49,210 nucleotides of DNA, taken from the NCBI GenBank assembly GCA_002689455.1, contig NZGE01000053.1, positions 1 through 49,210 of the forward strand, read 5' to 3'. The DNA is from Magnetococcales bacterium (lineage in GTDB: Bacteria > Pseudomonadota > Alphaproteobacteria > UBA2136). The first letter of the stretch is position 1. Every line of letters begins with the position of its first letter. The position numbers and the translations under genes were made by a program. Below, piece after piece: positions 21,034-27,536 of the stretch. The notes beneath the pieces are model-generated. The model did no database searches, was not told the origin of the DNA, and saw nothing but the letters and a program-made list of their open reading frames with translations.

Positions 21034-21049
21034 GCATAATGCGTGCCAA
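21034..21049 (-). promoter_or_regulatory. Putative sigma54 -24/-12 promoter of flgBC-fliE
   Basis: Minus strand TTGGCACGCATTATGC (TGGCAC-N5-[A/T]TGC), about 51 bp upstream of the flgB start. Confidence 0.7.
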
Positions 21050-23177: not shown

Positions 23178-23286
23178 GTAGAACTTCCCCTTGAATTAAA
23201 GCTTTATTACGCTTACTTCATCAGTTGAAAATAACATTTTTCATTCCCTTTTTAGCGCCATGTGCGCGTATACACTGGAGAAATCT

Positions 23287-23649
23287 ATGGCAACGCCAAT
23301 TATTAAAATGGATGTTATTGTTAGCTCTTTCCAGGCATTAAGCAGCCACCGTAGTTTAACGGGGTGGATTATTAATTGTCCTCAAATAGGTGGAAGTTAT
23401 GTGCAAATTGACCGTAATGTGGGTGTAAACCCTAATGCTGTTGATGAGCTTGTTGAAAAAATTAGAGAAAAACCTGAAGGTTTTTGTGATGCTATTTCTG
23501 AAAAGGCTGAGGAGTTATTTGCAACGAAAGCTATTGAAATAACCTCCACAGAAGCGAAAGGTTTCGTAGAGGTTATGCATGAAGACGAAATTCAGGCTGA
23601 GCTGAATAATGCCTTTAAAGAAGGTGAGGCTAACGTAACTTTTTATTAA
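23287..23649 (+). CDS. Hypothetical protein (~120 aa)
   Basis: ORF with SD tggag before ATG 23287, followed by a terminator. Confidence 0.7.
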   Translation: MATPIIKMDVIVSSFQALSSHRSLTGWIINCPQIGGSYVQIDRNVGVNPNAVDELVEKIREKPEGFCDAISEKAEELFATKAIEITSTEAKGFVEVMHEDEIQAELNNAFKEGEANVTFY

Positions 23650-23723: not shown

Positions 23724-24197
23724 CTAGTCAGGTGAAATTTCTAAGTTAACGGTTCCACTGTAACTGCCAGATGTTGTGTATTGCATCACACTGTCAGCAA
23801 CGGTTACACGAACTTTTGCCGTGTTGCCACTGCCACAAAGTTCGTCAGAAGTTTCAGGGTTTGGAAAAGTAGTGGCGATGTTTTCATTTAAAACCACCCA
23901 ACCAGGGGCGCTGTCTTCTTCATATTCCACGGTCATGGAAATATCACTTGTACCATTGCTTAAAATATAACTATTACCTGCACCCGTACCTGTGCCTGTA
24001 ACTTTATAATTACTCTCATTGTCGTTTTGAACATAGGCGCATAGTGTGTAGGTGGATGTCATGTCTCCGCTGCCACCCCAAGCGCCAAGGGGTTGATCAG
24101 CGAGGCCTGTGATGCGTGCGCAAAGGTCTGTTGGTAAGCAGGCAGCATTTGCTTGCATTGAAAGTGTTATAAATAAACCTGTAAGCCAATAACGCAT
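23724..24197 (-). CDS. Secreted spore-coat-U (SCPU)-like domain protein
   Basis: Signal peptide ...SMQANAA; 'LCAYVQNDNESNYKVTGTGTGAGNSYILSNGTSDISMTVEYEE...LCGSGNTAKVRVTVADSVMQYTTSGSYSGTVNLEISPD' resembles the SCPU domain. Confidence 0.65.
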   Translation of the reverse strand: MRYWLTGLFITLSMQANAACLPTDLCARITGLADQPLGAWGGSGDMTSTYTLCAYVQNDNESNYKVTGTGTGAGNSYILSNGTSDISMTVEYEEDSAPGWVVLNENIATTFPNPETSDELCGSGNTAKVRVTVADSVMQYTTSGSYSGTVNLEISPD

Positions 24198-24229
24198 GTG
24201 AGTTCCTTTTGTTTTTCATAGTATATGAC

Positions 24230-24245
24230 GCAAAGTGTGTGCCAA
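24230..24245 (-). promoter_or_regulatory. Sigma54 -24/-12 promoter (perfect core) of the SCPU-like gene
   Basis: Minus strand TTGGCACACACTTTGC = TGGCAC-N5-TTGC, 33 bp upstream of the ATG. Confidence 0.78.
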
Positions 24246-24251
24246 TCAAAT

Positions 24252-24282
24252 AAAAAAGCTCCTCATAGGAGGAGCTTTTTGG
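24252..24282 (-). terminator. Intrinsic terminator, probably ending the flgF-G-A-H transcript
   Basis: Minus strand aaaaagctcctcctatgaggagctttttta. Confidence 0.8.
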
Positions 24283-24420
24283 GACCCCACAATAAAGTGG
24301 GTGGTGGTCAGCTTCTTCAAGGGAGGGGGGAGAAGAGAGCGAAACTGACCCCATAGGTTTTGACGGCAAGCCCCACCTTTAAAGGGAGGGGAGGGAGAGT
24401 TAGGTAAGGCCCACCCGCCA
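24282..24420. repeat. G/C-rich imperfect inverted-repeat region in the flgH 3' intergenic
   Basis: ccccacaataaagtgggtgg; ggtcagcttcttc...gagaagagagcgaaactgacc; paired 'cttcaagggaggggggag' and 'ctttaaagggaggggaggg' tracts. Confidence 0.5.
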
Positions 24421-24571
24421 AACTTTTCAGTGAAAATATATTTGTTTTTTCATGGCTCGCTTAGCTTTTCTAAGTGTCATTCTTTAATACAAACCTATTG
24501 TTCACTTAAAGGTAATTAGCTATTTTTGTTCGTATATCCTTTCATGTTTTTTCTTTAAAAAGGGTTAGACC

Positions 24572-25300
24572 TTAAAATGGTAGCCATTTATCAAGGAATT
24601 TAACGGCAGGTTGAGTCTCTTGTGATTCATCCACCATGCCACGCCCTGAGTATGCAATACGTGCCTCGGCAATTTTTTCCGATGGGACAGTGTTGTCCGC
24701 TGCAATATCAACTGGGCGCACAATACCGCTGATTGTCATGTTTTGTAGTTCATAGTTTACCAATACTTCACGTTGACCTTGAATAACCATGAAACCATTG
24801 GGTAGAACTTCTGTAACCATGGCAGCGATACGGCCTTCAAATGTGTCTTCACGGTTGGTTTTACCGTCACCTGTAAAGGTGCGCTGTGAGTTTGTATCAA
24901 ACATGTTTCCCGTAGCATCATCAATGATACCTGATCGACCAAGAACATTTGTCATGTTTAATAATCGGTTAATGCCTGCAAGACCATTGTGTGTGCGGTT
25001 TGATTCTGTTTCAGCTTCAACTTCTGCTTTTGCAGTTTCGTTTACAATAACCGTTACAATGTCCCCAACTGAGCGAGCACGACTGTCTTTAAAGAAGCCT
25101 TTAGAACCTGACTGCCAAAGTGAGCCACTTGCACGTGCCATTTCACGCGGCTTTGTAATTGGTGCTTCATAAACACGGTTGTCCATTTTTTGGTTTACCG
25201 ATTGGCTTACAGGTGTAAATTGTGGTCTTGTGTTATAAAAACATCCAGACACAAACACCGCTGAAGCAAGTAAACTTATGTTTAATAATTTTGTTTTCAT
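24572..25300 (-). CDS. flgH: Flagellar L-ring protein FlgH
   Basis: Lipobox VSGCFYN; 'GSLWQSGSKGFFKDSRARSVGDIVTVIVNETAKAEVEAET', 'LPNGFMVIQGQREVLVNYELQNMTISGIVRPVDI'. Confidence 0.97.
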   Translation of the reverse strand: MKTKLLNISLLASAVFVSGCFYNTRPQFTPVSQSVNQKMDNRVYEAPITKPREMARASGSLWQSGSKGFFKDSRARSVGDIVTVIVNETAKAEVEAETESNRTHNGLAGINRLLNMTNVLGRSGIIDDATGNMFDTNSQRTFTGDGKTNREDTFEGRIAAMVTEVLPNGFMVIQGQREVLVNYELQNMTISGIVRPVDIAADNTVPSEKIAEARIAYSGRGMVDESQETQPAVKFLDKWLPF

Positions 25301-25320: not shown

Positions 25321-25797
25321 TTAGTTCACAAGTACTAAGCCGTTTTTTTGGACAACCCCGTGTAGCATTTGTTTAGATTCTTGGTTTAGAACCTTTACAA
25401 AGTCACCAATACTTGCATCTGCCATCACCAATCCATCAGTTGTGAGGCGAATTTTTCCTTTTTGAAAAATAACAGTTGCCATTTCCCCTTTGCGAACAGC
25501 TGGTACTTCACGGAATTGGCTTCTGTAAAGTGGCATGCCTGCGCGAATGTTACGAACGGCTTCCATGCCAATAACATTCCCAGGGTCTTTAACAATAAAC
25601 GCGGGTACAGATGCACCTGCATATTCTTGTGTTGTTATCATTTCGTACGTTACCACTTCGCCACGTGTAATTGTTTGTTTTAAAGTGGGTATTTCGTTGT
25701 CCATCAGCTCTTCTGCATTTGCCATTTTAGCGGCAAGGAGGAGAAGGCTGATGCTTGCGGCCATCATAGTACCTTTAACGATATCCATTGTTTGCAT
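25321..25797 (-). CDS. flgA: Flagellar P-ring assembly chaperone FlgA
   Basis: SAF-like 'AVRNIRAGMPLYRSQFREVPAVRKGEMATVIFQKGKIRLTTDGLVMADASIGDFVKVLN'. Confidence 0.92.
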   Translation of the reverse strand: MQTMDIVKGTMMAASISLLLLAAKMANAEELMDNEIPTLKQTITRGEVVTYEMITTQEYAGASVPAFIVKDPGNVIGMEAVRNIRAGMPLYRSQFREVPAVRKGEMATVIFQKGKIRLTTDGLVMADASIGDFVKVLNQESKQMLHGVVQKNGLVLVN

Positions 25798-25817: not shown

Positions 25818-26597
25818 TTATCTAATTTGGTTGGCTGCAGCCATCATCTCATCTGCTGTGGTGATGATTTGTGAGTTTAGCTCGTAGGCACGCTGCGCTG
25901 TAATGAGGTCGGTGATACTTTCAATTGCATCAACGTTTGAACCTTCTAAGTGTCTTTGTAAAAGTTCGCCTGAACCATCTTCACCCGCAATCACGTTTGC
26001 GGCTGCACCTGAGGCTTCAGTTTCACGGTATAAGTTGTCACCCATTGCTTCCAAGCCGGCTTCGTTTACAAACATGTTTGTTGTAATTTGCCCAAGGTTT
26101 ACAATGGTGTCATCTACAGAAGCTGTAACTGTACCGTCGCCAGCGATGTTAATATCAATGGCCTCTGGTGGTACATTAATCGCAGGGTCTAATAGGAAAC
26201 CCTGAGATGTTACAAGGTCACCATTTTCATTTAACTGAAATGCACCATCTCTAGTGTAGGCTGTGTCTCCATTTGGCATTGTGATTGTAAAGAACCCACG
26301 CCCTTGAATGGAAATATCTAAAGGAGCATCCGTACGGGTTACAGCGCCTTGTTCAAAATTACGGTAAACTGAACCAACGTTTACACCTAAGCCATATTGT
26401 ACACCGCTTGGCGCCAATGTGTTGGCGGAAGATGTTGCAGCACCTGGTGTACGTTCATTCATGTACAATAAGTCTTTGAATGAAGCACGCTGGCGTTTGA
26501 AAGCTGTTGTGTTAATGTTGGCAATGTTGTTTGAAAGAACGTCAACGTTGGATTGCTGTGCCAGCATACCCGTTGCGCCGATTTTTAATGCATTCAT
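25818..26597 (-). CDS. flgG: Flagellar distal rod protein FlgG
   Basis: 'MNALKIGATGMLAQQSNVDVLSNNIANINTTAFKRQRASFKDLLY', 'LEGSNVDAIESITDLITAQRAYELNSQIITTADEMM'. Confidence 0.97.
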   Translation of the reverse strand: MNALKIGATGMLAQQSNVDVLSNNIANINTTAFKRQRASFKDLLYMNERTPGAATSSANTLAPSGVQYGLGVNVGSVYRNFEQGAVTRTDAPLDISIQGRGFFTITMPNGDTAYTRDGAFQLNENGDLVTSQGFLLDPAINVPPEAIDINIAGDGTVTASVDDTIVNLGQITTNMFVNEAGLEAMGDNLYRETEASGAAANVIAGEDGSGELLQRHLEGSNVDAIESITDLITAQRAYELNSQIITTADEMMAAANQIR

Positions 26598-26642: not shown

Positions 26643-27365
26643 TTACGGCATACGTGATAATTCACGGATCGCACGTTGTTCTAAATCTTCTAAGTTGCCT
26701 ACTAAGCGTGAAATGCTTTGGTAGGTACGGTTAATTTCAGTAAGGTTTACACTTTCTTGAATAGGGTTGATGTTAGATGTCTCTAAAAACCCTTGTGCAA
26801 CATTAATGTTCTCAACAGCTACAGGTGCATTGCCTTCGTAAATGTAACCATGCTCACCTGTACGAATAAGTTTTTGGGGGTCATCTACATTGACAACGCC
26901 AAGGTTTGCAATGATGCCATTTTGGTTTGCAATTGAGCCGTCGCGGTTAATAATAAGTGTGCTACTGTCGGCTGGAATATTAATTTGTCCACCGTTGGTA
27001 TCTAAAACGGGGGAGCCCGTATCGGTCACAAGCATGCCTGTTTGGTCTAAACTAAAGTGACCGTTACGGGTGAGGTGGATTTGACCATTCCTTTCTGTTT
27101 GGAAAAATCCTGCGCCATTGATTGCAACGTCAAAATCATTATCTGTGCGCTCAAGGCCGCCTTGAGTGAAGTTGTAGAATGTACCGTTGTGATGTGTGAA
27201 AGAACCAACCTCTTGGGCTTTTTGTCGGCTTACGATTTCTTGGAAATCCATGCCAAGCTTTTTATACCCATTTGTATTGGCGTTAGAGATATTATCGGCC
27301 GTCATGTCCAACTTTTTGCGCTGGCCAATCATGTTAGACGATACGATATATACTGGTACAGTCAT
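26643..27365 (-). CDS. flgF: Flagellar proximal rod protein FlgF
   Basis: 'MIGQRKKLDMTADNISNANTNGYKKLGMDFQEIV', C-terminal 'SNINPIQESVNLTEINRTYQSISRLV'; upstream of flgG. Confidence 0.94.
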   Translation of the reverse strand: MTVPVYIVSSNMIGQRKKLDMTADNISNANTNGYKKLGMDFQEIVSRQKAQEVGSFTHHNGTFYNFTQGGLERTDNDFDVAINGAGFFQTERNGQIHLTRNGHFSLDQTGMLVTDTGSPVLDTNGGQINIPADSSTLIINRDGSIANQNGIIANLGVVNVDDPQKLIRTGEHGYIYEGNAPVAVENINVAQGFLETSNINPIQESVNLTEINRTYQSISRLVGNLEDLEQRAIRELSRMP

Positions 27366-27520: not shown

Positions 27521-27536
27521 GCATGAAGCGTGCCAA
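27521..27536 (-). promoter_or_regulatory. Putative sigma54 -24/-12 promoter of flgF-G-A-H
   Basis: Minus strand TTGGCACGCTTCATGC, ~156 bp upstream of the flgF ATG; same layout as the flgB site. Confidence 0.68.

Follow-up and report, generated by a model that had tools for sequence, protein, structure and literature searches.

The window (the whole stretch of DNA that was analysed, 49,210 nucleotides from a Magnetococcales bacterium) carries the flagellar genes flgF, flgG, flgA and flgH on its minus strand and, behind flgH on the same strand, a gene for a small secreted protein, P0001. The spacer between flgH and this gene holds a structured RNA element, a terminator and a sigma54-type site. 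The features are as follows, in the direction in which the genes are read.

27521..27535, minus strand: sigma54-type site of the flgF operon, TGGCACGCTTCATGC, first in the window by the clade matrix and conserved in G001, G004 and G008
26643..27365, minus strand: flgF, assigned from sequence
25818..26597, minus strand: flgG, assigned from sequence
25321..25797, minus strand: flgA (P-ring chaperone), assigned from order and sequence
24572..25300, minus strand: flgH (L-ring protein; PF02107 match), last gene of the flgF-flgG-flgA-flgH operon
24252..24434, minus strand: conserved structured RNA element ending in a terminator (87% identity in the congener; z -4.8; helices kept)
24253..24280, minus strand: intrinsic terminator (12-bp stem, then a T run) parting the flgH side from the SCPU-like gene
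24230..24244, minus strand: sigma54-type -24/-12 core, TGGCAC-ACACT-TTGC (exact match; third in the window by the clade flagellar matrix; congener site with one mismatch)
24144..24197, minus strand: predicted signal peptide, MRYWLTGLFITLSMQANA, cut before ACLPTDLC (read from the translation by eye)
23724..24197, minus strand: P0001, a secreted SCPU-like subunit of 157 residues without an N-terminal donor-strand extension
21034..21048, minus strand: sigma54-type site of flgB, TGGCACGCATTATGC, second in the window by the clade matrix and conserved in G001

Read along the minus strand, positions 24245 to 24230 give TTGGCACACACTTTGC, in which an exact TGGCAC-N5-TTGC core occupies 24244-24230, as the initial annotation of this DNA had it. 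The gap between this core and the ATG at 24197 is short, as was also claimed, but amounts to 32 bases rather than 33 bp. Transcription beginning some 12 bases from the GC element would start near 24218; the 5' leader would then measure about 21 nt, and AAAGGAA lies ahead of the ATG. The exact string alone is weak evidence, because the genome holds 10 such cores against 5 for the pattern read backwards, and this count, only about two-fold enriched, was rejected as sole proof of a promoter.

A scoring matrix built on the flgB, flgF, flgK and flgD sites of the clade, 12 in all, gives the site 16.2 bits, which ranks it third in the window behind flgF and then flgB; scores of this size are expected by chance 0.45 times per 49-kb window. 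The flgF and flgB sites, which had been pointed out before, are both real and are both conserved in the congener. For the 374-bp intergenic spacer, the chance expectation of an exact match is about 0.001-0.003. The corresponding spacer of the congener, G001, has an aligned site, CGGCACAGCCTTTGC, in which GG, GC and their spacing are kept; it scores 15.1 bits, against 3.9 for the next-best site there, and its mismatch, at the T preceding GG, is off consensus.

It could be argued that the string is due to chance and that a sigma70 promoter, or read-through out of flgH, accounts for transcription of the gene. The modest enrichment of exact cores in the genome would fit such an account, as would a weak sigma70-like match that overlaps the site, the number of such matches being about that expected by chance. 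Against it stand the position of the core just ahead of the gene, with so low an expectation for the spacer, the aligned congener site and a terminator lying between flgH and the P0001 gene, and the account is distinctly improbable. Since this strong intrinsic terminator closes the flgH side, the SCPU-like gene probably has a promoter of its own. The site upstream is a credible sigma54 promoter and sigma54 control of the gene is very likely, the activity of the promoter and its activation by FlbD being predicted from sequence. The proposed membership of the gene in the sigma54 flagellar regulon is strengthened by a credible promoter and by a conserved link to the flagellar operon, and is tempered by a congener site that is only partly consensus.

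FlbD, the flagellar sigma54 activator, is encoded in the same genome beside fliN and a motA-like gene, and is by far the best NCBIfam model for its product. The sigma54 gene rpoN is present in all six relatives searched, including the congener; it was not found in the draft of the source genome (86% complete), where its absence probably reflects missing sequence.

Among the 10 exact cores in the genome, four look like noise, three of them falling within coding sequence and the fourth where an open reading frame begins; the other exact core in the window, at 2673-2687, is within coding sequence and was taken as chance. The remainder are upstream of or close to flgK, flgD, a glmM-like gene, a lipoprotein gene pair, an SCPU operon on contig C15 and the P0001 gene, and all but the last of these recur as exact cores at the same place in G001. 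The C15 contig encodes a chaperone and two SCPU genes. Its exact site, found in both species of the genus (L029:10508-10522 and L033:12062-12076), lies about 194 bp ahead of the two-gene SCPU operon, with the chaperone gene upstream and a gene for a trypsin-like PDZ protease downstream, and its conservation widens the case for a joint flagellum-pilus regulon. No clear sigma54 site was seen ahead of the chaperone-usher genes on contig C10. Weak matches inside the C10 usher gene fall within conserved coding sequence and were not counted, nor was a site-like string at a pilin gene of genome G006, which lacks the G of GC.

Three further sites were recorded in passing. The exact, high-scoring site of the glmM-like gene lies 160-177 bp ahead of it in both species (L023:161-175 and L105:1501-1515), and would not be expected of a cell-wall gene. 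At the end of prmC, a conserved sigma54-type site precedes by about 100 bp the lipoprotein gene pair, which has no Pfam match (L029:7505-7519 and L033:9048-9062); its conservation may be that of coding sequence only. At the 3' end of a fliK-like gene, a sigma54-type site before flgD, near 1501-1515 of L100, L027, L095 and L096 and thus conserved across four genomes from two families, is likely to be an internal flagellar promoter.

The position of the SCPU-like gene behind flgH is conserved in relatives. In the congener (UBA2136), an orthologue that is 78% identical occupies the same place, and the copies of both species have their own promoter site. In G004 and G008, from another family of the same order, SCPU genes lie behind flgH in the flgFGAH operon; G004 has two of them and G008 at least one, and the first follows flgH at 35 and 33 bp, respectively. 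The flgF sigma54 site is present in both genomes and, because the SCPU genes follow flgH within the operon at about 35 bp, they should share this promoter. The two arrangements would be expected to bring about the same co-expression with flagellar genes. The linkage to flgH is carried by only two families, in an order with few genomes. In a clade test, a single origin of the flgH-linked group was neither supported nor rejected (AU p 0.47); FlgH itself places the two linkage-bearing families near each other with moderate support, and a single move of the gene to flgH is possible. On the other side of the SCPU-like gene, convergent with it and next to flhB, positions 23260-23649 of the plus strand encode a small conserved protein of no known family, which is also found in the congener.

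The translation of P0001 begins with a predicted signal peptide, in keeping with its description as a secreted protein. The label 'SCPU-like' is justified through its homologues, which include SCPU-like pilins of the same genome, and not for P0001 itself, which has no match in Pfam or NCBIfam. It does not reach the gathering cut-off of the SCPU family PF05229, and 3 of 20 homologues match that family weakly, below the cut-off (best E 0.0011). A PDB sequence search with P0001 and its family gave no useful match, and an AlphaFold model from two sequences had a pLDDT of 41, too poor to test the fold. By profile-profile comparison, P0001 and its orthologue match usher-linked pilins at 99.5% (E 8e-23), and the match begins just past the N-terminal extension of the pilins. 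Sequence identity to the pilins is low, at about 27-31%. P0001 is accordingly placed among the pilins by homology, and is quite likely to be a pilus subunit. These results point to one-domain, donor-strand-less SCPU-like subunits as a class that sequence libraries do not recognise.

In chaperone-usher biology, the N-terminal stretch of a pilin is its donor strand. A subunit without this strand can accept one but cannot donate, and so ends the fibre at the tip; FimH is an example. Pilins of the polymerising type all carry such a stretch ahead of the domain, for instance ATQGTLDPTSNGSFEVTLTIPD. From the mature N-terminus to a conserved Asp of the core there are 31 residues in nine pilins as against 16 in P0001, and the five flgH-linked proteins, with 16-18 residues, are 13-15 shorter than all nine. 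In place of the stretch, the flgH-linked proteins have an extra N-terminal Cys pair that is not seen in pilins. That a donor strand had been missed through a misplaced start codon was discounted, as the open frame extends only six codons further and the signal peptide abuts the domain. With no donor strand, P0001 is unlikely to be the repeating unit of a fibre, and it fits a tip or initiating position, a role that may be called reasonably likely from its anatomy. Of the suggested motility-linked surface fibre or appendage subunit, the secreted, pilin-type nature is supported.

Known tip adhesins usually have a second, binding domain. P0001, with 157 residues and one domain, has no separate binding domain, a point against such a role, and the same architecture is seen in the subunits of G006, G302, G210 and G187; the tip position is predicted, and any role in adhesion putative. 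Assembly of CFA/I begins with its tip subunit CfaE, which depends on a strand from CfaB (PMC7531860).

Although the gene is solitary locally, as had been stated, it is not so in the genome as a whole. Contig C10 encodes a donor-strand-bearing pilin, a TcfC/CooC_C usher and a PapD-type chaperone (nearest TcfA), in addition to the chaperone on C15. Across the 18 genomes of the order, flgH is present in 17 and the TcfC usher in 5, and SCPU genes occur in exactly the same 5. Twelve of the 13 usher-less genomes have flgH, and none of those 12 has an SCPU gene. Treated as independent draws, this coincidence has a probability of about 1e-4, a figure that is weakened by the relatedness of the genomes. 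Every one of the five usher-bearing genomes has a donor-strand-less SCPU gene. In G006, which has no flgH-linked copy, it is divergent from, and beside, the chaperone and usher genes; in G302 and G187, too, a gene of this kind lies between pilin and usher, with a chaperone close by. From this co-occurrence and placement, the donor-strand-less kind of subunit appears to belong with the usher, its gene having been placed in the flagellar programme in two families. Genome G196, of a distant alphaproteobacterium, has two donor-strand-less SCPU genes in tandem where a contig ends (L066:10407-11423).

While the distribution of the gene suggests a pilus, its neighbours suggest the flagellum. P0001 might be a flagellar accessory protein that is built from a pilin-type domain but has ceased to belong to a pilus, and that sits in the basal body near the L/P rings, in the periplasm or the outer membrane. 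The conserved place behind flgH, within the flgFGAH operon in G004 and G008, would agree with this, as would the resemblance of the sigma54 site to those of flgF and flgB and the Cys pair peculiar to the flgH-linked proteins. However, the gene is missing from 12 further flagellated genomes of the order, and a donor-strand-less SCPU gene accompanies the usher in all five cases, beside it in G006, such that a flagellar part is fairly unlikely. A very unlikely variant has P0001 made with FlgA and FlgH as part of the flagellum, or anchoring pilus fibres at the flagellar base; if true, flagellum and chaperone-usher pilus would be physically connected. The sigma54 site might also be used for a protein that stays outside the C10 pilus, whether secreted freely, placed on the surface or serving as a cap. 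The gene does lie outside the usher operon and the protein has diverged far from the pilins, but an incomplete Ig fold would need the strand of a partner, and the presence of the gene follows that of the usher; this is quite improbable.

The preferred reading, which is held to be somewhat probable as a whole, is that P0001 is a tip- or initiator-type subunit of an alternative (TcfC/CooC usher, CS1/CFA-I-like) chaperone-usher pilus, with its gene in the sigma54 flagellar regulon. The single-domain, donor-strand-less protein would enter the periplasm via Sec, where the pilus chaperone would hold its incomplete Ig fold. At the usher it would accept the N-terminal strand of a pilin and, having no strand to donate, could occupy only the distal tip, where it would initiate the fibre. 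The gene lies outside the chaperone-usher operon, next to flgH, and would have a separate sigma54 promoter that FlbD probably activates along with the flagellar genes; pilus initiation would thereby be timed with flagellar assembly. The chaperone and usher encoded elsewhere would build a proper fibre only when the initiating subunit is present. As the C10 chaperone-usher operon is without a clear site, any tie to the flagellum would concern only some of the pilus genes. We infer all these steps of regulation and assembly from anatomy.

The CfaE gene lies within the fimbrial operon, whereas the P0001 gene stands by flgH under a sigma54 site. The system otherwise resembles alternative (alpha, CS1/CFA-I) pili in its TcfC/CooC_C usher, TcfA-like chaperone, one donor-strand-bearing pilin and separate accept-only subunit; it differs in that CfaE has an extra binding domain where P0001 has one domain, and in that its subunits look SCPU-like. 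With archaic (Csu/CupE) SCPU pili it shares the weak SCPU similarity of the pilins and the beta-rich secreted subunits, but the usher is of the TcfC/CooC_C kind, and P0001 lacks both a PF05229 match and a donor strand and differs in its cysteine pattern. The regulon is like that of Caulobacter, with an FlbD-like activator by fliN and a motA-like gene and TGGCAC-N5-WTGC sites before flgB, flgF, flgK and flgD, except that here pilin-type genes bear the same kind of site. In Campylobacter jejuni, the flagellar co-expressed determinants are secreted proteins that are not flagellar components but are coupled to the flagellar gene programme; unlike P0001 they depend on another sigma factor and another secretion route, and are not pilus subunits. 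A literature search found no report of a pilus subunit in a sigma54-FlbD flagellar regulon.

Pili and flagella are often seen as belonging to opposite life styles and as inversely regulated. Here a piece that by its anatomy would start a pilus appears within the flagellar sigma54 regulon in two families that arrange the genes differently, which suggests that joint expression has been selected for. The bacterium probably builds its pilus in step with its flagellum.

The RNA element between flgH and the SCPU-like gene is a block of about 180 bases with no apparent coding, found only in the genus, and its fold is far better than those of shuffled sequences. It consists of two long hairpins with wide C-rich loops (CUCUCCCUCCCCUCCC), followed by a small hairpin and the terminator. 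An Rfam search with the block gave no match above the cut-off. The element may represent a small RNA, its anti-Shine-Dalgarno-like, C-rich loops being complementary to ribosome-binding sites.
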